Program-made: the position numbers and the translations under genes
Assembly (NCBI GenBank): GCA_021831685.1
Contig: JAKBMG010000172.1
Span: 1-48,057, forward strand
DNA length: 48,057 bases
Origin: Bacteroidota bacterium
GTDB lineage: Bacteria > Bacteroidota > Ignavibacteria > Ignavibacteriales > Ignavibacteriaceae
Direction of reading: 5' to 3'
In this document: positions 5,617 through 35,287 of the stretch, in pieces
How positions within the stretch are numbered: position 1 is the first letter of the stretch
Layout of the letters: each line of letters starts with the position of its first letter
Notes under the pieces: model-generated
Told to the model about the DNA's origin: nothing
Seen by the model: only the letters and a program-made list of their open reading frames with translations
The model's database searches: none

Positions 5617-5617
5617 A

Positions 5618-5809: not shown

Positions 5810-6256
5810 ATGAAAATAAAATATAATAACCTATATACCCATTTTATATTAGTAACACAGGATCGTTTGCCTATCATTCATGAAAAGAATAGGCAACGAA
5901 TTGAAAAATACATAACAGGTATAGTTAATAATAACGATTCTAAATTATATGCAATATATGCCAATCCAGAACATGTTCATTTTCTTTTATCACGTTCTCC
6001 CACATTATCAGAAGAAGACTTAGCTACAATTGTTTCAGACAGTTCTGAACGATTTATAAATGAAAATAAACTGTGTATTGGACGGTTTGCGTGGCAAGAA
6101 TCTGCCGCTGCATTTTCGGTATCAAAGTCGGATGTAGATAAAGTTTGTAAATATATACTTAATCAACCTCAACATCATCATAAAGTAACTTTTGCAGAGG
6201 AATATGAATCTTTTATAAAATTTTATCAGAAGACACTGCAATTAAATAAAAAATGA
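5810..6256 (+). CDS. IS200-like / REP-associated tyrosine transposase (TnpA_REP)
   Basis: The 148-residue protein is a Y1-type HUH transposase, which cuts and joins single-stranded DNA at hairpins. The HUH motif is H55-V-H57 in NPEHVHFLLSR, and the nucleophile is probably Y115 in VCKYILNQPQHHH. The phrase FAWQESAAAFSVS is characteristic of the Bacteroidota TnpA family. Length is complete for the family. It has no partner TnpB. Related palindromes on both sides (5618-5728 and 6282-6405) are its likely DNA substrates. The ribosome-binding site is weak (AGGTAATAA before ATG 5810), which is common for self-limiting transposases. Whether it is active cannot be judged. Confidence 0.9.
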   Translation: MKIKYNNLYTHFILVTQDRLPIIHEKNRQRIEKYITGIVNNNDSKLYAIYANPEHVHFLLSRSPTLSEEDLATIVSDSSERFINENKLCIGRFAWQESAAAFSVSKSDVDKVCKYILNQPQHHHKVTFAEEYESFIKFYQKTLQLNKK

Positions 6257-6281
6257 TGGCTAAAGCCTTATGAAATTAAAT

Positions 6282-6405
6282 AACCTTAGTAACATTAGTT
6301 GGCCTCTACCTTCTTAACATTATTACCTTATTATCAAACACTACTTCTAAAGAAGTAAGGTAATAAGGTTAAAGTACTAAGGGACAAACAGATGTTACTA
6401 AGGTT
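6282..6405. repeat. Right REP-like palindromic element
   Basis: Perfect 14-bp terminal inverted repeats AACCTTAGTAACAT (6282-6295) and 6392-6405 enclose a second perfect arm pair, TTATTACCTTA at 6320-6330 with 6356-6366. Sequence and layout match the left element at 5618-5728. A GGCTAAAGCC decamer at 6258-6267 lies between the transposase stop and this element. Confidence 0.82.
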
Positions 6406-6464
6406 AAGGGTTAGAAGACCAATGAGAAATAAAACTTATTGCTAAATTAATTTGAAAGGATAAA

Positions 6465-7163
6465 ATGAAAAAGTTATTACCGTTTCTATTTTTCCCGGTC
6501 ATTATATTTTTAGCCGGTTGCGCTCATACAAATGAGCTGGCTAAATACGATTTGACGGGCAGGAGAATGTTATTTTCTGACAACACCTCTCCAAACGCTA
6601 AGAGTTTGCAATTTGTAAACCGCGTTCCGGATAAAAAAGAAAAGGACAAGACTGATCTTCTCTCTATAATGGCGTCAGTTGGATCTGATATTCTATCCGA
6701 AACAAGCAAAAATAAAATTGCCGGTGCGGTTAGCACCGATTCGGTCGCAAGTTATGTATCGGGTGGTTTGAAAAACGCATTGGTAACATTTCTGAATGTT
6801 AATCCGGTAAATTCTATAAATGACAGCCCCCAATTTTTAACTGAAACTGTTATAAACAGTTGCCAGTTGGTAACCGGCACACAAAATGTTTCCATTTATG
6901 TGGAGGCTTCTTCCAGAATAATTGATAGGAATTCAGGAAATATTGTTTGGGATGACAACGAGTCTGAAACAGTTCCGATTGAAAAAAATGAAGCCGCTAG
7001 CAATGATAATTCCCGCGCTTTGAATAAAGTATTTAGCGCCGTTCAACTCTCATCTCTTTCTCCGGTAGAAATTCAGAAGGATATAGATGAAGCTGCAAGC
7101 AGCGCCGGCAGAATGATAGGGGATACTTTTCGTAAAGATGTAGTCAAATTAAGAAATAAATAA
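6465..7163 (+). CDS. Lipoprotein of unknown function
   Basis: The 232-residue product begins with a lipoprotein signal (MKKLLPFLFFPVIIFLAGC). The lipobox Cys is residue 19, so it should be lipid-anchored in the envelope. A GAAAGGA ribosome-binding site lies just upstream. The mature part has a mixed alpha/beta look, with a phrase ASSRIIDRNSGNIVWDDNESE that reads like a strand-turn-strand. I do not recognise the family. It is followed 15 bp later by a second lipoprotein and then by a large T9SS cargo, so the three may form one transcription unit. Confidence 0.8.
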   Translation: MKKLLPFLFFPVIIFLAGCAHTNELAKYDLTGRRMLFSDNTSPNAKSLQFVNRVPDKKEKDKTDLLSIMASVGSDILSETSKNKIAGAVSTDSVASYVSGGLKNALVTFLNVNPVNSINDSPQFLTETVINSCQLVTGTQNVSIYVEASSRIIDRNSGNIVWDDNESETVPIEKNEAASNDNSRALNKVFSAVQLSSLSPVEIQKDIDEAASSAGRMIGDTFRKDVVKLRNK

Positions 7164-7178
7164 TCTGCAGGTTTTAAT

Positions 7179-7643
7179 ATGAAAATTATATTTTCAGTAA
7201 TTGCGCTTATTCTTTTCGCCGGGATAAGCGGTTGTGTTTCTAATAAAAAAATTGTAAATGAAAAGACAGCATTAGATCAAAATATTCCGCCCGGTCAATG
7301 TAGAATTGAAGCGCGTGTAATAAAAATCGATTCAACTCTTTTAAGCAGCTCCGTCAATGACCCTTGTTCAAAATCGCCTTGCGTAGCATGGATCAAAATA
7401 AAAGATATAATCGGTTACGGAGCCGGCAGCAGCGCCTTAAACAATGGGGATACTTTAAAGACAAAATTCGCTTTCACTTTAGCGCCGACTACCAAAGAAA
7501 CTTTTCCAAAACTAATTGAAAATCTTCCCGGCTTAACCGATGGTTCTACATTTGAAGCCGACATACAACTGCTTCCTTCAAATCCGTCAAGTAAAAACAA
7601 AGAAAAGATTTATTTGATTTATGGATATAAAAAAATCAACTAA
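7179..7643 (+). CDS. Small lipoprotein of unknown function
   Basis: The 154-residue product has a lipoprotein signal peptide, MKIIFSVIALILFAGISGC, with the acylated Cys at residue 19. The mature portion contains two closely spaced Cys (PCSKSPC) and phrases suggestive of a beta-barrel or OB-like fold (RIEARVIKID, AWIKIKDIIGYG, KIYLIYGYK). I do not assign a family. It lies 15 bp after the preceding lipoprotein gene and 38 bp before the BNR-repeat T9SS gene, which suggests co-transcription. Confidence 0.78.
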   Translation: MKIIFSVIALILFAGISGCVSNKKIVNEKTALDQNIPPGQCRIEARVIKIDSTLLSSSVNDPCSKSPCVAWIKIKDIIGYGAGSSALNNGDTLKTKFAFTLAPTTKETFPKLIENLPGLTDGSTFEADIQLLPSNPSSKNKEKIYLIYGYKKIN

Positions 7644-7681
7644 GATATTTTATAATAATTAATCTTTGAAAGGATATAATA

Positions 7682-10456: not shown

Positions 10457-10499
10457 TTTTTGCAAGAATATAAATTGAACAGCAGTATAAATGAACTCA

Positions 10500-11750
10500 T
10501 TAATAGACCTTCTCTTCCGATTTTTCTGAGTCAGCTGCATCAGCCTCTATATCACGAAGGTTTTTTTCCATAAATTCACCATCCGGAGTAAGGAGTTGCT
10601 TGTAATATTCATGCTGGATAACAAGGTTCATTATTTCGTTTGTGCCGGTCCAAATCATGATGAGTCTTGCGTCGCGCAGCAGTCTTTCGATCGGGAAAAC
10701 ACTTGTATATCCGATTCCCCCCATGACTTGCATGGCTTTATTTATAACTTCCCATGCGGTGTCAGTGGCAAATTTTTTCGATTCTGAGACGAGCCGTCGC
10801 TGCAATGACGCATCTACACTGCTGTCAATTGCCTGCGCCGTAGCATGAACTAACGCTCTGGCAGCATCTAATTTCGTTAAACTGTCGGCTATCATAAAAC
10901 TAACTGCCTCAAAGGATCGGATTTTCTGTCCAAAGGCTTTCCTCTTGTTGCTATAACGAGCGGCGATCTCGAGAGCAGCGCGAGCCATTCCTAAAGCTCC
11001 GGCAGCGCTTGTCATCCGCTCAGGTATCATCATCTGATTAAAAATTTCATTTGCATCGTTCTCCTTCCCAATGAGATTTTCTTTTGGGACTCTCACATCA
11101 CGAAAAACGATTCTCCCTGTCCCGCCTCCTCTTGTTCCCATCAATCCATAAAGGTGGTGTACTTCAACACCCATTTCCCTGTCAACAAGGAACGCACTCA
11201 TTGAATTTTTTCCTTTCGCATCATCCCGGGTGCGGGCATATATAAAAAAGTAGTCGGCTCCTTCAGCGCCTACAACGAATCTTTTCTGTCCGTTCAGGAT
11301 ATAATAATCGCCATCTCGTCTTGCGGTCGTCGTTACGCCGAAAAAGTCTGATCCGCCTCGTGGCTCCGTCAAACCTTCTGCCGCTGTCAATTTTCCTGCT
11401 ATCGTCGGGGCAAAATATTTCTCCTTTTGTTCCCGTGATCCGAACTTATTTATTGCTTCGCCGACTATGCTCACCAACGAGTAAAGGCAAGGCAATGCCG
11501 TCCCCAATACTCCGATTTCCTCCAGAGCTACCACTTCTTCTTTCCATCCCAATCCGCGCCCTCCATACTCTTGAGGAAATCTCAATCCCAATAATTTTCT
11601 CTGAGCAGCTTTCTCAATGAATTCCCTCGGATATCTCACTTTATCCGCATCAAGATCTAACAAAAGTTGACGCGGCACATCTTCCTTAACAAAAGCCCGC
11701 ATCTCAGACTGAATTTGCAATTGAATATCCGTGTAAATGTTCGGGTTCAT
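10500..11750 (-). CDS. Acyl-CoA dehydrogenase
   Basis: This FAD-dependent enzyme (416 residues) oxidises an acyl-CoA at the alpha-beta bond and passes electrons to an electron-transfer flavoprotein. The N-terminal helical domain has [13 protein letters not shown]. The middle beta-domain has [12 protein letters not shown] and LNGQKRFV. The C-terminal domain has [20 protein letters not shown] and [10 protein letters not shown]. The usual catalytic Glu of the medium-chain enzyme is replaced by T368 (IWTGT). E244 in MIPERM lies where isovaleryl-CoA and long-chain dehydrogenases carry their base, so activity is probably kept. GGAG precedes ATG 11750. It lies directly downstream of a truncated acyl-CoA ligase. 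The substrate is unknown; branched or long acyl chains are possible. Confidence 0.92.
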
Positions 11751-18559: not shown

Positions 18560-20542
18560 TTAGCTTACTCCTAAAATCCAAATGAGAAGGAATACTAAAA
18601 AGATTAATCCGTAGATGATATACTGCTGCATCTTGCCGCTTTGTATCCACGAAAATAGATTTAAGGATTTCTTTAAGAATTTAAGATTAGGTTGAATTAG
18701 AAATCTTTCAAAGAAATCCTGTGAGTGGCTTTCTAAAGATGCTTCTTTAGGAAAGAGCACAGGTTCTTTCTCTACCTGAATTTTCTGCGGAACGAATTCT
18801 GAGACAAGATTCAAAAAGGGCTGTGCATAAGAACTGCTTGAATATTGTAACCGACTGCTGCTTTGTTGATAGCCGCAATCCCATGTTTTAAATACCTCAA
18901 CTTTCTTTTTCTTTAACAAAAGCAAACGGATTAAATAGAAGAAAACTATTAATGAACCAAAAATTAAAAGGTAATTAGAAAGCAGCTTCAAGGTCGTTTG
19001 AATTTGCGAGAAATCAGCAACAGAGTTGGCAGGCAAAAATTGTCTTACCGCATTACCGAGAAGCTGGAAAGCCAGGTACGGAAACAAACCCAACGTGAAA
19101 ATTATTACTACGAGAAATATCATTGGCACCAAAAGAGACAAATCCTTTTCATTTGGTTGACCATGTAGCTGAGAACGCGGTGATCCAAGAAATGCAATTC
19201 CGAATACTTTTGTAAAACTCAACAGCGCCATTGCTCCAACAAATGCTAAACCCGATATGCCTAGCACTGCAAAAATATTGATTGCAAGATTGCTAACTGA
19301 AAAACATTTTATTAATCCAAGGTAGATTAATAATTCACTTACAAAACCGCTTAATATAGGCAATCCGCTAATTGCAAGAGCTGAAATTAAAAATAAAAAT
19401 GAAGTCACAGGCAAATATTTAATTAGTCCACCAAGCTTATCGACATTTCGTGTGTGAGTCTGAGTGTAAACAACTCCGGAGCCGTAAAATAAAACACTCT
19501 TGAAAGTGAAATGATTCACCACGTGTAACATTGCTCCGAAAAACCCCAATAGTGCAATCGTATTATTATTGTATGCTAATCCGAGCATTCCGGTACCTAT
19601 GCCGATTCCAATGATCCCAATGTTTTCAATGCTTGAGTATGCTAATAACTTTTTCATATCCTTTTGAGAGACAGCATTGGCAATCCCGGTTAAACCGGTA
19701 ATTAGAGAAACGGCAAGAACAAAATATGCTACAGTTGCATTAGGCGTTCCGCTAAGCAAAACAATTCTAAGGATTCCATAGATTCCGGTTTTAATCATTA
19801 CACCAGACATAAGTGCTGAGACTCCCGTCGGTGCTGCCGGATGAGCTTTTGGCAACCAGGTATGCATCGGAACAAATCCTGCCTTTGTGCCAAATCCAAT
19901 AAAGAAAAGAACAAACAACAAAACTGATATGAAGCTTGAATTATTTAGTACATTTTTGAATGAATAAAAATCAAGAGAACCTGAAGATGCGGAAATCCAG
20001 GCAAATGCGGAAATTAGAAAAGCCGCTCCTATCTGCATAGCTATCAAATAATAAATACTAGCCTTGCGGACTTCGATTTTATTATTTTCAAAACTAACCA
20101 AAAAGAATGAGGAAATTGACATCACTTCCCAGACTATCATAAATAACATAGCATTCTGAACTATAACAACAAGCAGCATCGAAGCAACCATCAACCCTAA
20201 AAAGAAATAATATGATGATAAAGCAGATTTATTCCCCGAATACATTTTCATATAACCTTTGGAATAAATTGCGGCAAGCAGAGAGCCTAAAGAAATGATG
20301 AGAACAAACATTGCTGCCAAAGGGTCTAACCGGAGAAATGAAATCCCAATTGGTTCCGAAAAAAATAATTGAATTTCTATTTGACTTCCTGTAAATAAAA
20401 CTCTTAAAGTTTCCGGTAGAATAAAAACTTGAGCTAATACAGCAAAAGAGAGAAAACCTATTCCCTTAAATTTTTCTTTTATAAATACGGAAAACAGTCC
20501 GCCGATAAAAAACAAAATAGTTCCGGCCAATATATAGCTCAT
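18560..20542 (-). CDS. HyfB/NuoL-like proton-translocating membrane subunit
   Basis: The 660-residue protein is the first structural gene of the Ehr-type operon. Antiporter-family marks include the helix MLFMIVWEVMSISSFFLVS with the conserved Glu, and GFGTKAGFVPMHTWLPKAHP followed by TGVSALMSGVMIKTG. Another is AMLHVVNHFTFKSVLFYGSG, with His/Lys residues used in proton transfer. The C-terminal TWDCGYQQSSSRLQYSSSSY and the final membrane helix are typical of HyfB rather than NuoL. Its ATG overlaps the stop of the HTH-EIIA regulator gene (TAATG), which ties regulator and pump expression together. Confidence 0.9.
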   Translation of the reverse strand: MSYILAGTILFFIGGLFSVFIKEKFKGIGFLSFAVLAQVFILPETLRVLFTGSQIEIQLFFSEPIGISFLRLDPLAAMFVLIISLGSLLAAIYSKGYMKMYSGNKSALSSYYFFLGLMVASMLLVVIVQNAMLFMIVWEVMSISSFFLVSFENNKIEVRKASIYYLIAMQIGAAFLISAFAWISASSGSLDFYSFKNVLNNSSFISVLLFVLFFIGFGTKAGFVPMHTWLPKAHPAAPTGVSALMSGVMIKTGIYGILRIVLLSGTPNATVAYFVLAVSLITGLTGIANAVSQKDMKKLLAYSSIENIGIIGIGIGTGMLGLAYNNNTIALLGFFGAMLHVVNHFTFKSVLFYGSGVVYTQTHTRNVDKLGGLIKYLPVTSFLFLISALAISGLPILSGFVSELLIYLGLIKCFSVSNLAINIFAVLGISGLAFVGAMALLSFTKVFGIAFLGSPRSQLHGQPNEKDLSLLVPMIFLVVIIFTLGLFPYLAFQLLGNAVRQFLPANSVADFSQIQTTLKLLSNYLLIFGSLIVFFYLIRLLLLKKKKVEVFKTWDCGYQQSSSRLQYSSSSYAQPFLNLVSEFVPQKIQVEKEPVLFPKEASLESHSQDFFERFLIQPNLKFLKKSLNLFSWIQSGKMQQYIIYGLIFLVFLLIWILGVS

Positions 20543-21228
20543 TAAATGAGATTACCTTTCTTTTGCCAATCAAGTTCTCTCAAACGAACATAATCCAATA
20601 TCTCCTCTTTTTTAATTTGTTTCTTAAGCATTTCCAAAAATGTTATATCCTGGCATAAATAGGATAATTTAGAAAGGACATTTAGGTGCATTTTAGGACT
20701 TGAGGTGAACAAAATAAAAAGAGTATGAACCGGTTGTTTATCCAGCGCGCCAAATTCCAAAGGCTTAGCCAAATAACAAATTGAAATACTTGCATTATTT
20801 ACGTCGGTTACAATAGGGGTGCGGGGATGCGGGATTGCAATTCCGTTGCCAATTGCTGTTGGCATTAACTCTTCACGGCTTAACAGTGCATCTAAGATTT
20901 CCTCCTTCGATAAATTTCTCGGGGTATTAATCTTTTCTAATGCAATTTTCAGGACATCTTTTACATTTTCAGCGGTATCTAAAGGCAAAATCCCGCCTTT
21001 TTCAATCAACTTAAATAAAACTTCGGAACTTTGGGAAGCTGCTAAATTTATCAATGAAGGCGATAGTTCAATCTTATTGCTTAAAATCCATTCATTTATT
21101 TCAGCGCGATTAAACCGGTATTGATGATTTATCCGGTAACATGGGATTTTCTGATCTTTTATCCATCTATAAATCGTTTTTTCAGACACCTGAAAAAGAT
21201 TAACTATATCTTTTATTTTTAATTCCAT
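20542..21228 (-). CDS. HTH-PTS EIIA (Ntr/fructose-type) fusion regulator
   Basis: The 228-residue protein has an excisionase/MerR-like helix-turn-helix at about residues 3-50 (KIKDIVNLFQVSEKTIYRWI, HQYRFNRAEINEW). After a linker comes a PTS EIIA type-2 domain at about 78-222. The phosphorylatable His is H134 in the canonical IGNGIAIPHPR context. It probably senses phosphate flow through a PTS-Ntr chain and adjusts transcription. No EI, HPr or sugar EIIBC gene lies in the window. The stop codon overlaps the start of the HyfB-like gene, so it is the leader gene of the Ehr-type operon and a likely local regulator. The direct target is not proven. Confidence 0.88.
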   Translation of the reverse strand: MELKIKDIVNLFQVSEKTIYRWIKDQKIPCYRINHQYRFNRAEINEWILSNKIELSPSLINLAASQSSEVLFKLIEKGGILPLDTAENVKDVLKIALEKINTPRNLSKEEILDALLSREELMPTAIGNGIAIPHPRTPIVTDVNNASISICYLAKPLEFGALDKQPVHTLFILFTSSPKMHLNVLSKLSYLCQDITFLEMLKKQIKKEEILDYVRLRELDWQKKGNLI

Positions 21229-25212: not shown

Positions 25213-25899
25213 ATGGGAATTCTAAATATTTCAAATCATCAAGACCATCGTAAAAGATTAAGAAAAAGATTTCTTGAATTAGGAATAAATGGATTGTTAC
25301 CTCACGAAGTTATTGAATTATTTCTAACCTTTGTAGTTCCTCAGCAAGATGTCAAAGAAGAAGCTCACCAGATAATTAAAAAGTTTGGTTCAGTAAAAGG
25401 ATTTTTTGAAGCAAGTGATGAAGAACTTTCTGAAATTAAATTCTTTAAAGAAAAAGCTATTTCATTAAGGAAATTTATAAGAGAAGTTTCCTTATTGTAT
25501 CACAAACAAATTGCCGAAGAAACGTTAATATCATATTCCAAAAAAGAATTGATAGATTACTGTATAAAAAAACTCGGCAACCTTAAAGAAGAAGAATTCT
25601 GGATATTTACAATTGATAGCAAGCAGCAGATAATTAAAGAACATTTAATTTCAAAAGGATTAACTGATAAAACTCCCGTTTATCCAAAGCGTATATTAGA
25701 GTTAGCGTTAAACGACAAAGCACATTCAATATTAATTACACACAACCATCCAAACGGTAATAACAAACCATCCGATTATGACATTACTGTTACCAAGGCA
25801 TTAGACATCCCCGCACAAGTTTTAGGTATAATTATCATTGATCATATTATTGTTTCTTCAAAAAACTATTTGAGTATGAAAGAAGAGCACTTAATATGA
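25213..25899 (+). CDS. radC: RadC-family JAMM/MPN+ protein
   Basis: The 228-residue protein has the N-terminal helix-hairpin-helix part of RadC (HRKRLRKRFLELGINGLLPH) and a C-terminal JAB/MPN domain. The metal motif is THNHPNGNNKPSDYD, with H177, H179 and D190 as zinc ligands, and EEEFW upstream supplies the acid. Classical RadC is not clearly a repair enzyme, and RadC-like proteins are common in mobile and defence loci. The last 4 bp overlap the next start (ATGA), so it is translationally coupled to the helicase-nuclease. It probably works with that complex, possibly as a peptidase or nuclease. It leads the five-gene run into the type III restriction system. Confidence 0.88.
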   Translation: MGILNISNHQDHRKRLRKRFLELGINGLLPHEVIELFLTFVVPQQDVKEEAHQIIKKFGSVKGFFEASDEELSEIKFFKEKAISLRKFIREVSLLYHKQIAEETLISYSKKELIDYCIKKLGNLKEEEFWIFTIDSKQQIIKEHLISKGLTDKTPVYPKRILELALNDKAHSILITHNHPNGNNKPSDYDITVTKALDIPAQVLGIIIIDHIIVSSKNYLSMKEEHLI

Positions 25900-28733
25900 T
25901 CGACTCTGAGCTTCAAAAATTATTTCTCAAAGAATTCCCGGAATTAGAAAACAATAGAGCTCAGCGTGAAGCTATTTTTCAAACAGAAGGACCTGCTTTA
26001 ATAATTGCCGGTCCTGGTACAGGAAAAACTTTTACTTTAGTATTACGTACACTTTATATTATACTTTCGGAACGAGCTAAACCTTCAGAAATAATCCTAT
26101 CCACTTTTACGGAAAAATCTTCTTTTGAAATAAGAGACCGTTTGAGCCAATTTCAAAAAAAACTTAATGTTAAAATTGATCTTCACGAATTACGCACGGG
26201 TACCCTTCATAGTATTTGCGAAAGCTTTATCAGCAGCTATATTAAAAAAACTCCACTCAATAAAAGTTATTCTGTCCTGGATGATTTGACATTATCATTA
26301 TTTATAAATGAAAACTTTAATGAGGTTGTTGAACCTTATTTAATAGATACCAAGTATTTTGATAAGTGGTCAAGCAAATGGAATACAATTTCTAACCTTT
26401 CAATTTATTTTAATAAAATTACTGAGGAACTAATTGACCTAGATGATTTAAGAAATAATAGCAATAATTTTATTAAAATGATTGGCGAGTCATATTCTAA
26501 ATATCAGTCTTTATTATTTGAAAATAACAAAGTGGATTTTGCTTTCCTGCAAAAAATATTTTATGATTTGCTGCTTGATCCCGCTATAAACAAAAAAATT
26601 ACTTCTGAAATTAAATATGTTCTTATAGACGAATATCAAGACACTAATTATATTCAGGAACAAATTGCTCTAAAACTATCAGAGTCTAATAATAATATTT
26701 GTGTAGTTGGCGATGAGGATCAGGCACTATACCGTTTTCGTGGAGCAACAGTTAGAAATATACTTGAATTTCCTAAAAAATATTCAAGCTGCCGCACTAT
26801 AAAATTATTAAACAATTACCGTTCTCATGAAAAAATCATCGCCGCATATAACACTTTCATTAACTCAATAAACTGGCATAGTGACGATAAGAAGTCATAT
26901 TATCGTTTCCCTGATAAAACGGTTAAGGTTGCTGACACAACGAAATCACCTGGTTATCCTGCAGTATTTTCAATCTGGGTTGATTCCGAAAAAGAAGAAG
27001 CTAATCGTTTTGCTGATCTCGTTGAATTCCTATTAAAAAATAAAATCGTAAATGACCCCAGCGATATTGCGCTTTTATTAAGAAGCGTGCGTATCGATTT
27101 TTCAGGTCCCTTTATTGATGCACTTGCTAAAAAGAATATTAAAGCTTTTTGTCCACGTGCCCGTGCTTACTTCGAAAATGATGAAGTTAAACTGGCTTTC
27201 ACATGTCTTGCACTTATTTTCGGTTTTATAGATAAAGACCTGAATGATTATTCTCATAAATATATCATCGAAGAAGGATTAGGACTATTAGCTCCTTTTA
27301 TTGGCACACCGCTAGCTTCATTTATTAAAAGACAAGCAGAAGAATTTTCTAACCTATCCGGTAAAGATACTCTTGATAAAAATATTCCGGATTTCCTTTA
27401 CCTGCTTTATGCTTATAAACCTTTTTCCGACTTCCTAAAGGATGAAAATCAATCGCGTAATCTTTCAATATTTTCATCATTGCTAAACACCTTTCAACTC
27501 TATTATCATTTCCCTGTTATTTCAGCAAAAAATAAATTAGCTGTAAAGCATAATTTGTTTAATAGTTTTTTTAATCTTCTTCTAAACTCCGGTCAAAATG
27601 AATACGAAGATGATAATAATCCTATCCCCAAAGGCTATGTACAGATTATGACTATACACCAATCAAAAGGGCTTGAATTTCCTGTAGTTGTTGTTGGTTC
27701 ATTAGATAAACGTTTTTCAGTTGGGAAAGAAGTTGACCGGCTGCTTTCTCCATTTTATAAAAGAGAAGAATTTGAACCCGAAGATAAAATTACAACTTTC
27801 GATCATGCCCGCTCTTTTTACGTTGCTTTCTCACGTCCTCAAAAATTACTTGTGCTTACAAACAGCTCTCAACCCAAACCAATTTTTAATCCAATTTGGG
27901 AAGGTCTTGACCAATGGCCGCATGTAAAAAAACAAACTCTTTTAGCTCAGCAATTTCAATCAAAGGCGCCGTTTATCCCTAAGCAAAGTTTATCTTTAAC
28001 ATCACATATAAATATTTATGAAACTTGTCCTCGTCAGTATCAATATTATAAAGATTTAGAATTTACCCCCAGCCGTACTGGTCAGGTTTTATTTGGAACT
28101 CTTGTCCATGCAACTGTAGAAGATTTGCATCGAAGTATCATTGAAAATGAATCGGTTGACGAGAAAAAAATAGCTTTAGATTTTGAACAAAATTATAAGG
28201 GACTAGTTGCATCTGGTCTTCGTCCGCTAGCTCTACACCAAAAGGAAGCCGCTCTCAAACAAGTCATAACCTATTTCCAAAATAATAAAGATTTACTAAA
28301 AAGAGTTATTGATACTGAAGTAGATGTCTCTATTGAAAAAGATGAATATATTATCACCGGTAAAGTTGATCTTTTATTGGGCCGTGATAATAAGCTTGAA
28401 GTTCTTGATTTCAAATCTCAGCAAAGACCTGATTCAAAAGATTCAATCCTTGAACGTTATAAAAAACAATTAAACCTCTATGCTTATATTTTAAGGGAGC
28501 GTTATAAAAAAGAACCTGAACGTCTTTATATTTACTGGACTGCTGAAGACAAAAGAAAAGATGCGCTTATGGAAATTGATTATGATCCCCAATTAGTTGA
28601 AGAAGCGGGCAAACACTTTGATTCAGTAGCTAAATGTATCCTTGATCGTGACTTTGAAATTCATAACTGGCCCGATAAAACAAAAGTTTGCAAAGAGTGC
28701 GATTTTAAATTTTACTGCAGAGTGGAGAAATGA
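25896..28733 (+). CDS. UvrD/RecB-like helicase with C-terminal Fe-S PD-(D/E)XK nuclease
   Basis: The 945-residue protein is a superfamily-1 helicase fused to a RecB-type nuclease, an AdnB/AddAB-like layout. Walker A GPGTGKT is at residues 39-45, motif II DEYQD at 245-249 and motif III GDEDQALYRFRGA at 272-284. Motif V reads IMTIHQSKGLEFPVVVVG and motif VI FYVAFSRPQKLL. The nuclease part has FGTLVHATVEDLH, KVDLLL and LEVLDFKSQ, which give the His, Asp, Asp and Lys of the active site. Cys in YETCPRQYQYY together with CKECDFKFYC supply an Fe-S staple. It would unwind and degrade DNA ends. It overlaps both neighbours by 4 bp. Confidence 0.92.
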   Translation: MIDSELQKLFLKEFPELENNRAQREAIFQTEGPALIIAGPGTGKTFTLVLRTLYIILSERAKPSEIILSTFTEKSSFEIRDRLSQFQKKLNVKIDLHELRTGTLHSICESFISSYIKKTPLNKSYSVLDDLTLSLFINENFNEVVEPYLIDTKYFDKWSSKWNTISNLSIYFNKITEELIDLDDLRNNSNNFIKMIGESYSKYQSLLFENNKVDFAFLQKIFYDLLLDPAINKKITSEIKYVLIDEYQDTNYIQEQIALKLSESNNNICVVGDEDQALYRFRGATVRNILEFPKKYSSCRTIKLLNNYRSHEKIIAAYNTFINSINWHSDDKKSYYRFPDKTVKVADTTKSPGYPAVFSIWVDSEKEEANRFADLVEFLLKNKIVNDPSDIALLLRSVRIDFSGPFIDALAKKNIKAFCPRARAYFENDEVKLAFTCLALIFGFIDKDLNDYSHKYIIEEGLGLLAPFIGTPLASFIKRQAEEFSNLSGKDTLDKNIPDFLYLLYAYKPFSDFLKDENQSRNLSIFSSLLNTFQLYYHFPVISAKNKLAVKHNLFNSFFNLLLNSGQNEYEDDNNPIPKGYVQIMTIHQSKGLEFPVVVVGSLDKRFSVGKEVDRLLSPFYKREEFEPEDKITTFDHARSFYVAFSRPQKLLVLTNSSQPKPIFNPIWEGLDQWPHVKKQTLLAQQFQSKAPFIPKQSLSLTSHINIYETCPRQYQYYKDLEFTPSRTGQVLFGTLVHATVEDLHRSIIENESVDEKKIALDFEQNYKGLVASGLRPLALHQKEAALKQVITYFQNNKDLLKRVIDTEVDVSIEKDEYIITGKVDLLLGRDNKLEVLDFKSQQRPDSKDSILERYKKQLNLYAYILRERYKKEPERLYIYWTAEDKRKDALMEIDYDPQLVEEAGKHFDSVAKCILDRDFEIHNWPDKTKVCKECDFKFYCRVEK

Positions 28734-30259
28734 AAATAATTAAAATCTTCATCAGTAGTGTTCAAAATGAATTTTCTCAAGAGAGAAACATGCTTTATGA
28801 ATATCTTTCTACTGATGCTCTTTTAGGCAAATTCTTCGAGCCTTTTATTTTCGAAAACCTTCCTGCTAAAGATCAAAAAGCCGATGAAGCTTATCTTTCG
28901 CATGTAAAAAAATCAGATATTTATCTTGGTATATTTGGTAAAAATTATGGCTATGAAAATAAAGATGGATTTTCTCCAACGGAAAATGAATATAATTTTG
29001 CGTGCAAAGAAAATAAAACTCGCTTAATTTTTATTAGCAATCATAAAAGCAATGAACGCAATTCAAAAGAACTTGCTTTAATCCATAAAGCCGAAAATGA
29101 GGTAATACGAAAAAAGTTTTCATCAATTTCAGAACTCAGAACTTTAGTTTATGCTTCGCTCGTAAACTATTTGGAAGAAAAAGATTATTTACGTACCGTT
29201 CCTTTTGATGCCTCAATTTGTAAAAATGCTACATTTGATGATATTGATAATGAAAGAATTTCTGAGTTTGTTGCCTTAGCAAGAGAAAAAAGAAAATTTC
29301 CTTTACCTGTATCTTCAAGACCGGAAAAAGTTTTAACCCATTTAGATCTTTTTAATGATGGTAAACTAACCAACGCTTCCATTTTGTTATTTGGTAAAAA
29401 TCCGCAACATTATTTTATATCGTCAGAAATTAAGTGTGTTCAATTTTACGGTACTGAAATAGTTAAACCTATTCCATCATATCATATTTATAAGGGTGAT
29501 GCTTTTCAGCTTGTTGATCAAGCCGTTGATTTTGTTCTTTCAAGAATTGACGCCAGAGTAGGTACACGTAATAAATCTAATGCTGTTCCTTTTGATTATG
29601 AAATACCTCGATCAGTTGTCTCAGAAGCTATTGTTAATGCGGTAGCACACCGGGATTATACAAGCAATGCATCTGTTCAGGTAATGCTTTTTAAAGACCG
29701 CCTTGAAATTTGGAATCCTGGTCAACTTCCTGATAAATTAACCCTTGCTAATTTAAAATTCTCTCACAGTTCAATTCCAAGAAATCCCTTGCTTGCCAAT
29801 CCTTTGTTTTTTGCTGGTTATATTGAAAAAGTCGGTACTGGTATTCCAGATATGCTTACAAATTGTAAACTAGCTGGACTTAAAGAACCAGATTTTAAAA
29901 TTGACGATGCTTTCAAAATAATAATTTATCGTGCTATACAAATAACCGGACAAGCTGCCCCACAAGTTAGCGGACAAGTTACCCCTCAAGCTGCCCCACA
30001 AGTTACCCCCCAAGCTGAGTCAATTCGACGTGTTGTTTTAGTGCTAAAGGGCGAACTGACAAGAGCAGAAATTCAAGAATTACTTAAACTTAAAGATAGA
30101 AAATCATTTATAGCAAACTATCTAAATCCCGCTCTTGAAAGTGGATTTATAGAAATGACTTTACCGGATACACCAACAAGTCCAAATCAACGTTATCATT
30201 TAACTACAAAAGGCAAACGTTTTAAAACAAAATTAAATAAAGAGATTAAACAGGAATAA
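28730..30259 (+). CDS. DUF4062 - RecG-like HATPase - winged-helix protein
   Basis: The 509-residue protein opens with a DUF4062 domain (KIIKIFISSVQNEFSQERN, VKKSDIYLGIFGKNYG), about residues 1-150. Next is the linker typical of Schlafen/AlbA-type ATPases (GKLTNASILLFGKNPQ). A GHKL-type HATPase_c_4 domain follows, with E299, N303, H307 and D309 in SEAIVNAVAHRDY, then LEIWNPGQLP and EKVGTGI. A Gln/Pro/Ala-rich tether spans about 407-430 before a winged helix at 431-509. Its relatives usually carry an AlbA_2 DNA-binding domain at the N-terminus; here DUF4062 takes that place. It overlaps the helicase gene by 4 bp and sits 10 bp before mod. A sensor or regulator role in defence is inferred. Confidence 0.85.
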   Translation: MKIIKIFISSVQNEFSQERNMLYEYLSTDALLGKFFEPFIFENLPAKDQKADEAYLSHVKKSDIYLGIFGKNYGYENKDGFSPTENEYNFACKENKTRLIFISNHKSNERNSKELALIHKAENEVIRKKFSSISELRTLVYASLVNYLEEKDYLRTVPFDASICKNATFDDIDNERISEFVALAREKRKFPLPVSSRPEKVLTHLDLFNDGKLTNASILLFGKNPQHYFISSEIKCVQFYGTEIVKPIPSYHIYKGDAFQLVDQAVDFVLSRIDARVGTRNKSNAVPFDYEIPRSVVSEAIVNAVAHRDYTSNASVQVMLFKDRLEIWNPGQLPDKLTLANLKFSHSSIPRNPLLANPLFFAGYIEKVGTGIPDMLTNCKLAGLKEPDFKIDDAFKIIIYRAIQITGQAAPQVSGQVTPQAAPQVTPQAESIRRVVLVLKGELTRAEIQELLKLKDRKSFIANYLNPALESGFIEMTLPDTPTSPNQRYHLTTKGKRFKTKLNKEIKQE

Positions 30260-30269
30260 AGGCAAACCT

Positions 30270-30743
30270 ATGTCCAAAATCGAAATCAAAAAAACTGAGC
30301 TTGTCTGGAAAGGCAAATACGATGATGAAGGTAAACTTGTTCCGGTTGAAAAACCCGGTCCATATCCCTTCCAGATAATTGAGGTTGTTAACCAGCCCCG
30401 CAGCGGTAACGAAGAACTTAAACCACAGCAAAATCTTTTTGATACCTACAAAGGCGATGAAGGCGATACTTTTGAAACCGGCTGGCGCAACAAACTTATT
30501 TGGGGAGATAACAAATTTGTTATGTCCTCTCTCCTTGAGAAGTTTGCTGGCAAAATTGATTTGATTTACATAGACCCTCCCTTTGCTACCGGTGCGGATT
30601 TTAGAATGAATATTGAAATTGGCGAAAAAGGAGATGAGGTTTATAAAGAACATTCAATTATTGAGGAAAAAGCATATAGAGATACTTGGGGTCAAGGTAT
30701 TGAAAGTTTTTTAAAGATGATGTATGAAAGAATTTCTTTCTGA
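30270..30743 (+). CDS. mod: Type III restriction-modification methyltransferase Mod, N-terminal part (frameshifted)
   Basis: The 157-residue piece carries the beginning of a class-beta N6-adenine methyltransferase. WGDNKFVMSSLLEKFAGKID leads into motif IV DPPF (102-105) within DLIYIDPPFATGADF. The frame then ends after FLKMMYERISF. In intact relatives MMYER is followed by a few residues and then by KEFLSEKGSIYIHLDWR, which appears here in the next frame. The break is at about 30723-30735. ATG 30724 of the second piece lies inside this frame, so the cell may make two polypeptides. It follows the DUF4062 gene by 10 bp. Confidence 0.88.
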   Translation: MSKIEIKKTELVWKGKYDDEGKLVPVEKPGPYPFQIIEVVNQPRSGNEELKPQQNLFDTYKGDEGDTFETGWRNKLIWGDNKFVMSSLLEKFAGKIDLIYIDPPFATGADFRMNIEIGEKGDEVYKEHSIIEEKAYRDTWGQGIESFLKMMYERISF

Positions 30744-32151
30744 AAAAGGCTCAATTTATATACATCTAGATTGGAGAATGAATAGTTATGTTAGATTGTT
30801 ATTAGATGAAATTTTGGGATTTGATAATTTTCAAAGAGAAATAATTTGGGATATATCCGTCCTCAGCGGTTTCAAATCTTTAGCTAATAATTGGATAAGA
30901 GGTCATGATACAATACTATTCTATTCAAAAGATACAAATAACATTATTTTTAATAAACAGACTACAGAACATAGGGAAGAATATATCAAAAGATTTAATA
31001 AAGCAGATAAAGATGGTAGGAAATACTTTGATGGAAGAGGAGTTAAACGTTACTTAGACGAAGTTCTTGAAAAAGGTAAGCCGATTGGTGATGTATGGAA
31101 CGATATTATGTCTTTTCAGCAAATACCTACAGCTGTAGAACGCTTACCTTATCCGACACAAAAACCAGAATTACTTTTGGATAGAATAATAAGTGCTAGT
31201 TCAAATGAAGATTCTTTAGTTGTCGATTTCTTTTGTGGTTCCGGTACAACTTGTGCGGTTGCAGAAAAGCTTAATCGCCGCTGGATAGGTGTTGATCTCG
31301 GTCGTTATGCAATACATACAACGCGCAAAAGAATATTAGAAATAGCAAACTCAAAGGACTTAAACGATACTTCAAAAAAATATGGCAAACCCGCCCGCCC
31401 GTTTGAAATACTTAACCTTGGTAAATATGAAAGACAGTTTTGGCAGGTAAAAGCTTTCAACCGTAAAGATGAAAAACAAGCTTTGTATGAGTACCTTGCT
31501 TTCATTCTAAAACTTTATGGCGCTGAACCAATTGCCGGTTCCTCTCACATTCACGGCAAAAAAGGTAATGCGCTTGTTTACGTTGGCGCAGTGGATTCGC
31601 CAGTTACAATCCAAGAAGTAAACGATGCAATGCACGACTGCAAAGAAATGGGACAAAAAGAACTCCACATTCTCGGCTGGGAATGGGAAATGGGGATGAA
31701 TGACACCATTAAAGATGTGGCAAAACAAGGCGGTATAAAATTACTCCCGATAACTATACCGATGGATGTACTTGAACCCGAAGCAGCTAGGAAAGGTGAT
31801 GTCCGTTTTTTTGAACTTGCTTACTTCAAAGTTGACACAGAAACCGATAATAAAGATTTAAAAATAAAACTGGAAGATTTTGTAGTCCCTCATACAGATT
31901 TAATTCCGCAAGAAGTAAAAGACTCAATAAAAAAATGGAAAGACTGGGTAGATTATTGGGCTGTAGATTTTGACTTCAAGAATGATACATTTAATAACAC
32001 ATGGACTTCATACCGGACAAGGCAGGACCGCAAACTTAATTTTACAGCAAAGCATACTTACGAAAAAACGGGAACTTACAAAGTACTCGTAAAGATAATT
32101 GATATTTTTGGGATTGATACTTCACAACTTTACGAAATCAAAATTAAATAA
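30724..32151 (+). CDS. mod: Type III restriction-modification methyltransferase Mod, C-terminal part (frameshifted)
   Basis: The 475-residue piece holds the rest of Mod. LSEKGSIYIHLDWR is followed by the target-recognition region (about 30-140), YPTQKP (143-148) and SAM motif I DFFCGSGTT (168-176), with RWIGVDLGRYA after it. A long C-terminal tail ends in a PKD-like beta-sandwich (HTYEKTGTYKVLVKIIDIFG). The order IV-TRD-I is that of beta-class enzymes. Because the split falls between motif IV and the recognition domain, function would need trans-assembly or ribosomal frameshifting. It is separated by 9 bp from res. If Mod is dead, Res should be inactive too, because type III Res works only in a complex with Mod. 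Confidence 0.9.
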   Translation: MKEFLSEKGSIYIHLDWRMNSYVRLLLDEILGFDNFQREIIWDISVLSGFKSLANNWIRGHDTILFYSKDTNNIIFNKQTTEHREEYIKRFNKADKDGRKYFDGRGVKRYLDEVLEKGKPIGDVWNDIMSFQQIPTAVERLPYPTQKPELLLDRIISASSNEDSLVVDFFCGSGTTCAVAEKLNRRWIGVDLGRYAIHTTRKRILEIANSKDLNDTSKKYGKPARPFEILNLGKYERQFWQVKAFNRKDEKQALYEYLAFILKLYGAEPIAGSSHIHGKKGNALVYVGAVDSPVTIQEVNDAMHDCKEMGQKELHILGWEWEMGMNDTIKDVAKQGGIKLLPITIPMDVLEPEAARKGDVRFFELAYFKVDTETDNKDLKIKLEDFVVPHTDLIPQEVKDSIKKWKDWVDYWAVDFDFKNDTFNNTWTSYRTRQDRKLNFTAKHTYEKTGTYKVLVKIIDIFGIDTSQLYEIKIK

Positions 32152-32160
32152 GGGGGAAAA

Positions 32161-34902
32161 ATGGCAAAATCTTGGGTACAATACGACAAAGAACTTCCTT
32201 TTATTGAAGACCGCAATCCCTGGGATATACCGAATTGCTATTTACGCAAAACCGGAATTAATGAGTTTGAAGTAATTGAAGGCAGAAGACCAAGCAGAAT
32301 GTTTCTTGTAAATAATCTTCGAAAAGAAATAGATGCGTGGCGTTCAAGCGATTATCCCGGGATAACAAGTACAACTTATGAATTGATAACGCATTGGTTC
32401 GAAAACTCACATCAGCCAGTATTTGGAAGTGAACCGTTCAACTTTTATTTCTGTCAGCGTGAAGCAATTGAAACTATAATCTATCTTTTTGAAATTAAAC
32501 ATTTCAATGATATTATTCCCTTAATTCAAGAGTATGCTGAAGAAGATCAAAGTGCTCTCTTTGGTCAAAAAATAGAATTCTCTGAAAGAATGGACGGGAA
32601 AAGAATACTTAAAAGATATTTTCCTGAACTTCAAAATGTAGGCGAACAGGAACTCCCGGAAGAAAACCTTTTACGTTATGCCGTTAAAATGGCAACCGGT
32701 TCAGGCAAAACAATGGTTATGGCTTTTGTTATTGTATGGTCATTCTTCAACCGCTTGCGTGAAAAAGACAGAAGATTTGCAGATAATTTTTTAATTATTG
32801 CTCCAAACGTCATTGTTTATGAACGCCTTGCTAAAGACTATGCCGATGGAAAAATATTTAATGATTTCCCGTTCATTCCAGCCGCTTGGAAACATCAATG
32901 GAATCCAAACACAAAATTGCGCGGCGATGAATCTCCGTTAAGTACAAGTGGTAATATCATTGTAAATAACATTCATCAGCTTTACGAATCAAGAATCAAA
33001 GAATGGCAACCGGATACAATTGTTAATGCCATTTTGGGTAGAACTCCACAAAAAGATCCTACCAAACCTCCTCAAGTTCTATTGGAAAGGATTAAAGAAC
33101 TTGATAATCTTATCGTCCTTAATGATGAAGCTCACCACGTACATGATGATGAATTAAAATGGAATGAAGCGTTATTATCAATTCATAATTCAATTCCGGG
33201 AGGTTTAACAATGTGGCTCGACTTTTCAGCCACACCTAAAACTCCAAATAATACTTATTATCCCTGGATAATTTGTGATTATCCTTTGGCTCAAGCTGTT
33301 GAAGACCGGATAGTAAAAGTCCCGCTCATCGTTCACGGCTTCGATAAGAAAGACCCTGAAAGTATAAACAAACAGAATGTTGTTGTTAAATATGGAGCAT
33401 GGATTAAGGCAGCTCTTATTCGCTGGAGAGAACATTATGATACTTTTAAGAAAGTTAAAAAGAAACCCGTTCTTTTTGTTATGGCGGAAAAGAATGATTA
33501 TGCAGATAAAATTGCCGAAGCCATAAAGAAAATCAGTGATTCTGAAAAACTTGGAATCAAAAAAGATGAAATCCTTATCATTCATACAGATTCATCCGGC
33601 GAAATAAAAAAAGGTGATATCGAATCTTTACGGGAAGAAGCCCGTGATATTGACAAACCTGAAAACAAAATTAAAGTAATAGTAAGTGTTCTTATGCTTC
33701 GTGAAGGTTGGGATGTTCAAAACGTAACGCTTGTTCTTGGATTAAGGGCATTTGATTCTCCGATATTACCTGAACAAGCTATTGGTCGAGGGTTACGCTT
33801 AATGAGAGATGTTAGTCCTGATAGAACCCAAACACTTGAAATCATTGGTAACAATAAATTCGAAGAAATCATAAAGCAGCTTGAAGAAGAGGGAGTTGGA
33901 ATCAGAACTACAAAAACTCCGCCGCCATTACCAATTACAATTGCACCTGAGACAAAAAGATTGGAATATGACATTACAATTCCGGCTACAGATTATTCAT
34001 ATAATCGTGTTTATAAAAGATTAGATGAAATAGATGTATCAAAAATCCCTTCGCTATTTACTTCTTCAAAGTTACAAGAAGATCGAAAAACAGTTCTTAA
34101 ATTGAATATGTTTCAGCTTGATTACGAAGTTCACACAGCTCCTTTAGAAGAAGATATTCTCGAGCTTGGAAAAGATTTAGTATCTCACATTACCGGCGAA
34201 GTAATCCGAAAAGCTCGCCTTACTAATTGCTTCAATATACTCTATCCTAAAGTTGAGCAATACATTTTAGAAATATGTTTTGAAGTAAAACTAAAGAATA
34301 TTGAAAACGAAAATCTACGTAAAGAATTAAAAGACATAGCAATACGAGAGATTATTATTGATCATCTTTCCGCAGCAATCGGAAATGCTACAGTGGAAAA
34401 GAAGACAATTAAAGTCCAAGGTAAACCAATTAGGCTATCTAATACACCGCCATTTACATGGAGACGAAAGCGCGAAAGGTTAAACAAAACAATATTTAAT
34501 TTTGTTGCCCTTTTTAATGATTATGAAGGTGAATTCGCAAAATTTTTAGATAAATGCGAAGACATTACTGCTTTTGCTGCTTTAGCCGGAACAGATTTTA
34601 AGATTGATTATCTAACTTCAAAAGGAGCCATTCGATTTTACTATCCCGATTTTGTAGCTGTTCAAAAAGTTGGTAAAGAAAAGGTTAATTGGATACTCGA
34701 GACAAAAGGTCGCGAATTTCCTGAACTTGATAACAAGAACAAAGCAGTTGAACGCTGGTGCAAACAAGTTACTGAACAAACCGGAAAAGAATGGAAATAC
34801 TTAATGGTGAAACAATCAAAGTTTACTTATGCGTCAAAAAACGTAAAATGTTTTTCGACTTTCCTTGAAGGTTATTTACATGATGAACAAGAGCTCTTGT
34901 AA
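32161..34902 (+). CDS. res: Type III restriction endonuclease subunit Res
   Basis: The 913-residue protein is an ATP-dependent superfamily-2 translocase-nuclease. Walker A MATGSGKT is at residues 177-184 and the DEAH box at 322-325 (LNDEAHHVHDDE). Motif VI reads EQAIGRGLRLMR. The C-terminal PD-(D/E)XK nuclease has YPDFVAV and WILETKGRE. No frameshift or lost catalytic residue is visible, so this gene looks intact, unlike mod. Res partners with Mod to cut DNA that carries unmodified, inversely oriented sites. The GGGGGAAAA leader before ATG 32161 is a strong ribosome-binding site. Confidence 0.94.
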   Translation: MAKSWVQYDKELPFIEDRNPWDIPNCYLRKTGINEFEVIEGRRPSRMFLVNNLRKEIDAWRSSDYPGITSTTYELITHWFENSHQPVFGSEPFNFYFCQREAIETIIYLFEIKHFNDIIPLIQEYAEEDQSALFGQKIEFSERMDGKRILKRYFPELQNVGEQELPEENLLRYAVKMATGSGKTMVMAFVIVWSFFNRLREKDRRFADNFLIIAPNVIVYERLAKDYADGKIFNDFPFIPAAWKHQWNPNTKLRGDESPLSTSGNIIVNNIHQLYESRIKEWQPDTIVNAILGRTPQKDPTKPPQVLLERIKELDNLIVLNDEAHHVHDDELKWNEALLSIHNSIPGGLTMWLDFSATPKTPNNTYYPWIICDYPLAQAVEDRIVKVPLIVHGFDKKDPESINKQNVVVKYGAWIKAALIRWREHYDTFKKVKKKPVLFVMAEKNDYADKIAEAIKKISDSEKLGIKKDEILIIHTDSSGEIKKGDIESLREEARDIDKPENKIKVIVSVLMLREGWDVQNVTLVLGLRAFDSPILPEQAIGRGLRLMRDVSPDRTQTLEIIGNNKFEEIIKQLEEEGVGIRTTKTPPPLPITIAPETKRLEYDITIPATDYSYNRVYKRLDEIDVSKIPSLFTSSKLQEDRKTVLKLNMFQLDYEVHTAPLEEDILELGKDLVSHITGEVIRKARLTNCFNILYPKVEQYILEICFEVKLKNIENENLRKELKDIAIREIIIDHLSAAIGNATVEKKTIKVQGKPIRLSNTPPFTWRRKRERLNKTIFNFVALFNDYEGEFAKFLDKCEDITAFAALAGTDFKIDYLTSKGAIRFYYPDFVAVQKVGKEKVNWILETKGREFPELDNKNKAVERWCKQVTEQTGKEWKYLMVKQSKFTYASKNVKCFSTFLEGYLHDEQELL

Positions 34903-34981
34903 TTAAGAAATTAATAAATGTTATTCAAATATGAAGATTCATTAAATTAATATTTATAAAATATGATTATGAGGTTATAAA

Positions 34982-35287
34982 ATGGACTGGAATTATTTAC
35001 TAAATGATTCAAGATTAAGACCAACAACAAGACAAAATGATGCTCGAAATGAATTTGAAAGCGATCTTGGAAGAATAATATTTTCACCAGCCATCAGAAG
35101 GATGCATGATAAAACCCAAGTATTTCCGCTTCTACTCAAAAGGCATTTACACACTCACCTGGGAAAAACTTACCCTGCTTACATCCGCCTTCGGTCTAAA
35201 AGCCATCTAAAAATTCCCCGAAACAAATCCCGTTTGGCAACACAGCCCTTGAATTCTAAGCAATTTTTACGTGTCCTATTCAATTAA
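34982..35287 (+). pseudogene. 5' stump of a dGTPase (dNTP triphosphohydrolase) fused to unrelated sequence
   Basis: With a good ribosome-binding site (GAGG), ATG 34982 opens a frame whose first ~50 residues are the classic dGTPase N-terminus: RQNDARNEFESDLGRIIFSP and RRMHDKTQVFPL. The family then needs RLTHSLEV and an HD metal site across about 400 residues, all absent here. After residue 50 the frame becomes Lys/Arg/His-rich and unconvincing. In the next frame, 35121-35210 reads like the end of another protein (YSKGIYTLTWEKLTLLTSAF). The gene therefore looks broken by a deletion or recombination joint. dGTPases are known anti-phage enzymes, so it fits the island. Confidence 0.82.

Follow-up and report, generated by a model that had tools for sequence, protein, structure and literature searches.

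A RadC lineage coupled to UvrD-Cas4 in a branch of type III restriction-modification operons with an exchangeable gene slot

In the genome of a Bacteroidota bacterium of the family Ignavibacteriaceae (GenBank assembly GCA_021831685.1), positions 1 to 48,057 of contig JAKBMG010000172.1 (48,057 nucleotides (nt), hereafter the window) encode a RadC protein, a fusion of a UvrD-type helicase with a Cas4-like nuclease (UvrD-Cas4), a protein that combines a DUF4062 with a GHKL ATPase domain (open reading frame (ORF) 3), and the Mod and Res subunits of a type III restriction-modification (RM) system. A preliminary description of this DNA took the first three genes for a candidate defence module of their own placed ahead of the RM genes. 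Comparison with relatives indicates instead that the co-inherited unit consists of RadC, UvrD-Cas4, Mod and Res, and that ORF3 is not a core member but an exchangeable occupant of a slot inside the operon, with relatives that occur without the operon. The best explanation, which is considered moderately probable, is a type III RM operon of the order radC - uvrD-cas4 - [cargo slot] - mod - res, equipped with an end-processing arm and a swappable backup effector. The sequence comparisons support the gene order, the common strand, the close coupling of radC with uvrD-cas4, a single RadC lineage, the joint divergence of RadC, UvrD-Cas4 and Res, the integrity of the catalytic sites and the presence of unrelated defence-type genes in the slot. 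The recurrent unit appears to be best described as a RadC-containing branch of the UvrD-Cas4 class of type III RM operons.

The operon and its RadC in related genomes

Relatives were sought in one genome per species (84,980 genomes) with an alignment of the nuclease domain; 343 were found via two peptide patterns and ranked by similarity to a window-led alignment, and the best 80 were fetched. These 80 loci are not all independent: L107 and L108 belong to one assembly, L178 and L183 to another, and L149/L150, L167/L169 and L129/L185 are near-copies. Wherever the genes were found, they lie on one strand in the order radC - uvrD-cas4 - [slot] - mod - res. RadC is encoded directly upstream of UvrD-Cas4 in 52 of the 68 loci with more than 700 nt of upstream sequence (twelve loci with too little sequence fall outside this count, among them L107, which does carry a partial RadC). 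Mod is encoded downstream in 51, and Mod together with Res in 48, of the 54 loci with more than 6 kb of downstream sequence. There are 53 RadC-positive loci, one of them cut at a contig end; three have no phylum assigned, and the others span 21 named phyla, every one of them bacterial. The closest relatives (L106-L113) show 63-68% identity in UvrD-Cas4, 52-62% in RadC and 67-69% in Res, where these are on the contig. In a sample from the window's phylum, 29 of 296 genomes (its own included) match at 1e-40; apart from the self match, the top hits are fusions of 27-28% identity (L004-L006) that lack RadC, Mod and Res in the vicinity, and the operon therefore looks uncommon in close relatives. 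The same phylum holds a second family of full-length UvrD-nuclease fusions, about 25% identical (L078, L079 and L080), again with no RadC, Mod or Res match nearby. No relative was found in viral contigs.

More remote relatives reside on plasmids. A tblastn search of PLSDB with UvrD-Cas4 gave 21 plasmid records at a coverage of at least 80% and an identity of 25-36%. UvrD-Cas4 lies upstream of mod and res in nine of the ten bacterial plasmid neighbourhoods inspected, adjoining mod in eight of them and separated by two genes in Spirosoma; in the tenth, on a cyanobacterial plasmid (L074), a short mod-like match is all that lies close by. The Fusobacterium plasmid stretch is without annotation, and the haloarchaeal one is without an annotated mod or res. 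The Res of the operon belongs to a different subfamily than the plasmid-type Res (L070, L071), with an identity of about 20%. A view drawn from the plasmids only, with a three-gene core and RadC and ORF3 as chance neighbours, was overturned by the genome scan. Upstream of uvrD-cas4, two alphaproteobacterial plasmids (L076 and L105) carry a recombinase-family gene and an ABC-three-component system.

The link between RadC and UvrD-Cas4 is discernible at the level of the gene junction. An in-frame start codon gives a 4-nt radC/uvrD-cas4 overlap in 39 of 53 loci, across many phyla, and a 1-nt overlap in another 5 of the 53, with any in-frame ATG, GTG or TTG at the right distance counted; judged from these sequences, this recurrence is more than chance. 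Of the coupling that the preliminary description saw in all three genes, that between the first two is conserved in many genomes.

The operon RadCs also form a lineage of their own. In a phylogenetic tree they are split from other RadCs, those of the same genomes included (51 versus 22 sequences, support 99), and the split persists when the nearest stand-alone RadCs are added (55 versus 48 rows, support 97.8; the 103 rows hold 100 different sequences, with L222 = L121 and L224 = L180 among the duplicates). These trees are quick searches with support from the Shimodaira-Hasegawa-like approximate likelihood ratio test (SH-aLRT) only. Against the 22 others, the lineage has its own conserved residues (H12, R13, L16, F20, D46, K48, Y96, G122 and more), while E127, H177, H179 and D190 are invariant in all 51 operon RadCs, that of the window included. 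When a model of the operon RadC was run in reverse against 895 genomes of three phyla (297, 297 and 301), 11 RadC places scored at least 298 bits, of which ten adjoin UvrD-Cas4 and one is cut by a contig end; seven were already in the set and four, including the one at the contig end, were new. None of the 63 fetched RadC places at 284.4 bits or less adjoins UvrD-Cas4. RadCs that score with the operon model are common in one of the sampled phyla (171 of 297 genomes at 1e-45), where all 26 fetched examples below 285 bits are without a UvrD-Cas4 neighbour.

The core proteins diverge together. The Mantel correlation r is 0.908 for RadC and UvrD-Cas4 (n=48), 0.95 for UvrD-Cas4 and Res (n=44), 0.902 for RadC and Res (n=31) and 0.737-0.789 for the pairs with Mod (n=30-41), with none of 1000 permutations as high in each case. 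These tests ignore shared descent, apart from a same-genome control in which RadC and UvrD-Cas4 reach 0.935 (n=20), as against 0.259 for the operon RadC and the other RadC of the genome (n=19), a value itself reached by 11 of 1000 permutations. With a control correlation this low, host phylogeny explains little of the RadC co-divergence.

RadC was found in none of the 59 control loci without the operon, that is, in none of 25 other UvrD loci (short flanks), three distant fusions, ten plasmid-type loci, three BPTD-type Res loci and 18 stand-alone ORF3 loci. Of the 16 loci that lack RadC, the UvrD tree includes 14; they are spread over the tree, on which 13 changes are required for the RadC label, so RadC was probably lost from the operon repeatedly. 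The protein as such is widespread: 8 of 14 well-known genomes used as controls encode it. A second RadC is encoded elsewhere in the host genome, and operon-bearing genomes have between one and five RadC matches, with at least two in 19 of 20.

The slot between uvrD-cas4 and mod

The interval between uvrD-cas4 and mod could be measured in 72 loci, the window included, of which 48 are filled and 24 were scored empty; one of the latter, L148, is doubtful, as its frame continues into a GHKL match, which makes 23 the safer count. The occupants are TmtA-like proteins (18 loci), DUF4062-GHKL proteins (8, window included), Schlafen-GHKL proteins (8), Schlafen-GHKL together with TmtA (3), GHKL proteins with an unclassified N-terminus (2) and others (9). 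These families are blastp clusters; the Pfam scan covered the ORF3 of the window and, from each of the TmtA and GHKL clusters, two members, and the N-terminal type of the other slot proteins was assigned by blastp. The TmtA-like protein with SACS and NOV_C domains, a single blastp cluster, occupies the slot in 21 of the 80 relatives, and the two of its 21 members that were scanned match the PADLOC TmtA model with 1522.8 (L140) and 203.7 bits (L173). The model is that of Tiamat, a single-gene system; Tiamat-like genes fill in these relatives the position that ORF3 fills in the window. The Sacsin domain of TmtA is presumably a GHKL-type ATPase; a TmtA-like or HATPase_c_4 protein is present in 39 of the 48 filled slots. 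Rarer contents include STAND/AAA ATPases (L118), a YhcG-type nuclease (L165), a helix-turn-helix (HTH)-peptidase like PD-Lambda-2_B (L132, where it lies beside TmtA, and, by similarity, L144) and a TIR-TPR gene beside a Schlafen-GHKL gene (L145).

RadC, UvrD-Cas4, a DUF4062-GHKL protein and Mod are also encoded together in L106, L108 (with a partial ORF3), L109, L112, L139 and L176. The outcome named beforehand as fatal to the preliminary description, a trio confined to this genome amid shuffled neighbours, therefore did not occur. On a tree of 62 loci, the occupant changes at least 28 times, compared with a mean of 35.3 in shuffles, none of which (out of 200) is as low; from these sequences, exchange is frequent but not free. 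The ORF3 of the window shares 46-60% identity with six copies in slots and 45-60% with eight stand-alone copies, which fits cargo.

How far the slot genes are tied to restriction is the point on which the best-surviving alternative differs. It is quite possible, if less so than the operon with a backup effector, that they are defence genes in their own right, which merely use the same permissive insertion site and the operon promoter and have no functional link to restriction. In favour of this, the divergence of cargo tracks that of the core less closely (Mantel r 0.28-0.64, versus 0.90-0.95 for core pairs), and ORF3 relatives are found without the operon (UvrD-Cas4 in none of 17 and RadC in none of 18 stand-alone loci; the Legionella locus L098 is also without the operon, by annotation); moreover, TmtA and DUF4062 proteins have been modelled or shown as stand-alone defence proteins. 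The occupants are, however, more uniform than expected of a random bay, given the 39 of 48 slots with TmtA-like or HATPase_c_4 proteins, and one of the stand-alone relatives, L088, is itself flanked by genes resembling type III res and mod. In that locus (5190-11154, minus strand), the flanking genes show about 26% identity and no UvrD-Cas4 match was seen; it is a possible second RM operon nesting the same effector.

The locus in the window

The preliminary description had the three ORFs exactly where Table 1 gives them, with the two 4-nt overlaps (ATGA in both), and Pfam and alignments bear out the motifs it reported for RadC, the helicase-nuclease and the HATPase. It was also right in placing mod 10 nt after ORF3, but missed that mod lies in two frames.

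Table 1. Genes and domains of the operon in the window
Feature	Coordinates	Strand	Description
radC, operon lineage (228 aa)	25213..25899	+	helix-hairpin-helix N-terminus and JAB/JAMM domain
uvrD-cas4 (945 aa)	25896..28733	+	superfamily 1 (SF1) UvrD-type helicase fused to Cas4/AddB-like Fe-S PD-(D/E)XK nuclease
nuclease domain of UvrD-Cas4 (residues 703-942)	28002..28721	+	PF12705 range and alignment
slot cargo gene ORF3 (509 aa)	28730..30259	+	DUF4062 (TIR-like), GHKL ATPase (HATPase_c_4) and Fic-like_C winged helix
DUF4062 domain of ORF3 (residues 5-91)	28742..29002	+	PF13271, 72.9 bits (cut-off 24.7)
GHKL ATPase domain of ORF3 (residues 314-397)	29669..29920	+	PF13749, 75 bits
mod, first frame	30270..30743	+	PADLOC MTase_III PDLC03633 positions 17-159; DPPF motif at residues 102-105
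mod, second frame	30724..32151	+	PDLC03633 positions 162-613 (of 616); PF01555
res	32161..34902	+	superfamily 2 (SF2) translocase and PD-(D/E)XK nuclease; PF04851; related to BPTD_3080 family

The RadC of the window matches PF04002 (122.3 bits) and passes the RadC family model TIGR00608 (138.2 bits, cut-off 133.85) with the JAMM residues present, but it fails the RadC equivalog NF000642 (155.3 bits, cut-off 180). Its AlphaFold2 model has a mean predicted local distance difference test score (pLDDT) of 91.7; the nearest PDB structure to the JAB part is RadC 2QLC (E 2.6e-11), and short, weak matches to the XPF helix-hairpin-helix were also seen. UvrD-Cas4 matches UvrD-helicase (PF00580, 210 bits), UvrD_C and the Cas4-like PDDEXK_1 (PF12705, 88.5 bits), with Walker A at residues 39-45. 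Across 69 aligned sequences, the window included, the nuclease residues D825, D838 and K840 and the Fe-S cysteine C711 are invariant, and the other cysteines (C932, C935 and C941) are present in 68, the remaining sequence being gapped.

In ORF3, E299, N303 and H307 of the GHKL domain and E87 are invariant in all 15 aligned sequences, window included; E87 is a candidate equivalent of the catalytic E97 of the Swarozyc protein KpSwz, which is not among the 15. The model (pLDDT 64.4 overall) is confident only in the first ~150 residues and the C-terminus, and a Foldseek search of the PDB ranks the GHKL-type 3LMM best, followed by nucleoside deoxyribosyltransferases among others, with the SARM1 TIR domain at rank 45. 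A 12-nt tandem repeat at 29938-30009 encodes a Q-rich linker that joins the GHKL domain to the winged helix; some relatives have comparable QV repeats.

Res scores 327.8 bits on NF046055 (BPTD_3080 family), under the cut-off of 800, and the catalytic residues of motor and nuclease are kept in 48-49 of 49 sequences, window included. With a beta-class Mod that contains DPPF beside a Res that combines an SF2 motor with a PD-(D/E)XK nuclease, the locus has the make-up of type III RM, and with a UvrD helicase-Cas4-like Fe-S nuclease fusion encoded alongside Mod and Res, that of the UvrD-Cas4/Mod/Res class. It is not assigned to Gabija: GajB models match UvrD-Cas4 as UvrD kin, and GajA is absent among the matches listed for the seven proteins encoded at 25213-35287.

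The two overlapping frames of mod cover successive stretches of a single type III methyltransferase model, with the frame break at about 30724-30743, while both halves sit on a single ORF in 64 of the 65 relatives where both were found; an intact single Mod frame is thus a property of the relatives and not of the window. Either the window mod is truly broken or the assembly, a draft in 221 contigs, is in error at the break; the copy is possibly dead or misassembled. That the whole locus is a decayed remnant that does nothing here is nonetheless rather unlikely: the frame break and a truncated dGTPase gene downstream would fit decay, whereas the other four proteins (RadC, UvrD-Cas4, ORF3, Res) are complete and their motifs intact, and in such an assembly a base error is possible.

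The dGTPase fragment follows res at 34982-35287; its first 60 residues match, with 45% identity to a full-length copy in the same genome (contig C3), and are followed by unrelated sequence up to the stop. As a conserved downstream operon member it was ruled out, with no match in the 80 related loci. A search for island ends via repeats gave nothing convincing, and a promoter scan was without signal (9 sites versus 7.0 in shuffles, standard deviation 2.8). Elsewhere in the window (18560-21228, minus strand), a gene for a NuoL/antiporter-like membrane protein lies beside an HTH gene with an EIIA-like part, as read from the translations only.

Proposed mechanism and relation to known systems

Type III enzymes need Mod2Res at unmodified sites, according to the available parts of PMC12707154 and PMC8259958. 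In an operon with an end-processing arm and a backup effector, Mod2Res would find unmodified target sites and cut incoming DNA, and RadC and UvrD-Cas4 would act jointly on the ends made by Res or on branched intermediates, with the helicase unwinding in the 3'-5' direction, the Cas4-like nuclease degrading, and RadC, by means of its helix-hairpin-helix and JAMM metal site, positioning on or processing DNA. Such a putative role of RadC agrees with the argument made in the available text of PMC5512222 that RadC is a nucleic-acid enzyme rather than a peptidase, and with the helix-hairpin-helix part. The slot gene would come into action as a second line once restriction has been blocked or overrun, on the pattern of PrrC in EcoprrI; in the window it is probably a DUF4062 NADase, which the GHKL-HTH part would restrain. 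In its fullest form, which is put forward tentatively, the proposal is a layered immune operon in which Mod and Res are joined by a helicase-nuclease that, guided by RadC, finishes off or senses cleaved DNA, RadC serving end or junction processing with it, and by a socket for interchangeable GHKL-type suicide effectors that are silenced by the intact complex and released upon a block of restriction by phage.

It is unlikely that RadC and UvrD-Cas4 are instead a repair arm that protects the host from accidental breaks made by its own restriction enzyme, rather than a means of attack. The AddAB/RecB-like nuclease architecture, the RecB/AddB-like ancillary role suggested in the available part of PMC5704561, and two loci that keep RadC and UvrD-Cas4 without Mod within ~10 kb downstream (L127 and L152) all suit repair, but the defence-type cargo alongside favours defence; the co-divergence of UvrD-Cas4 with Res, as tight as that with RadC, is compatible with both. 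Least probable by a wide margin is that RadC is a hitchhiker of the mobile-element type (found with ArdB-like anti-restriction genes) that lodged upstream once and was then inherited. Mobile elements do carry RadC (matches in 107 plasmid records; also reported in the available texts of PMC5512222 and PMC12458937), and the tree permits a single origin of the operon lineage, but a hitchhiker should decay, and the JAMM residues are intact in 51 of 51, the 4-nt overlap is possible in 39 of 53 loci across phyla, and the co-divergence is tight (r 0.91). RadC-DinG fusions and ArdB-linked RadCs from the literature were considered and do not match the operon RadC.

Several observations weigh against the operon with an end-processing arm and a swappable effector. 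RadC is missing from 16 of 68 loci, including all three archaeal ones (L148, with a partial UvrD, is counted here), and is therefore not essential; the ten plasmid-type UvrD-Cas4 proteins form a separate clade without RadC. Despite more than 6 kb of visible downstream sequence, L127 and L152 have RadC and UvrD-Cas4 but no Mod, and L119 has neither RadC nor Mod. Cargo is optional, with 24 of 72 slots scored empty; its occupancy is more clustered on the tree than in shuffles, which speaks against free swapping, and the correlations of cargo with the core are low but mostly above those of permutations. Finally, the window copy itself may be inactive.

RadC is without an agreed function, and 'RadC, a misleading name?' is cited in the available part of PMC11981726. 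The association of one RadC lineage with a helicase-nuclease and a restriction enzyme across 21 named phyla provides a defined substrate context and a partner for the function of RadC. Type III restriction, usually drawn as two genes, is extended to a four-gene core with a swappable effector slot, in which DUF4062 proteins, Schlafen-GHKL proteins and Tiamat-like TmtA are linked by a shared position and presumably, going by annotation, by a shared ATPase superfamily.

Part of this arrangement is in print, so the label 'undescribed' of the preliminary description is half right, as it does not hold for UvrD-Cas4 with type III Mod and Res. The available part of PMC5704561 describes the UvrD-Cas4 fusions as monophyletic, with type III Mod and Res, as here, being the commonest neighbours, and some loci also having a Schlafen-like ATPase fused to an HTH; RadC has no occurrence in its main text (supplements outside the search), and its section 8, as available, names no cargo of the TmtA or DUF4062 type and does not describe a slot. 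In the open-access literature searched, no paper was found that links RadC to UvrD-Cas4 or to type III RM (subscription papers and supplements lay outside the search). The membership of RadC, its dedicated lineage, the coupled overlap and the interchangeable slot with TmtA and DUF4062 genes are apparently new, none of them having been found in the open-access literature searched. Already known as well, from the available text of PMC8259958, are extra 5' helicase genes in other type III systems: the m4C type III Eco86II group has a helicase-like ATPase gene directly 5' of mod, as here, which is said to recur in >500 genomes. That protein is described there as an SF2 helicase lacking a nuclease motif, whereas the operon encodes an SF1 helicase-Cas4-like nuclease fusion coupled to RadC.

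The operon RadC shares with stand-alone RadC the helix-hairpin-helix and JAB fold and the metal site, and differs in having its own conserved residues, a single clade and the coupling to UvrD-Cas4. On archaeal plasmids, the available part of PMC9674854 lists RadC and a UvrD-PD-(D/E)XK protein as separate ORFs (11 and 40) that do not form a pair. DUF4062 proteins can be NADases that abort infection, according to the available part of a preprint (PMC13174449), and the Swarozyc system described there shares with ORF3 the DUF4062 domain (each with a conserved Glu, which may be equivalent), a C-terminal HTH/winged fold and linkage to defence genes; ORF3 differs in its added GHKL ATPase domain and its position inside an RM operon. 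The closest precedent for such a position is PrrC inside EcoprrI, which, as reported in the available text of PMC12707154, is woken when the restriction enzyme is inhibited. The likeness, a cell-shutdown effector gene embedded in an RM operon, is here one of position only: EcoprrI is a type I system with a tRNA nuclease as its effector, the operon is of type III, and the coupling to RM inhibition reported for PrrC is for the slot genes a matter of inference.

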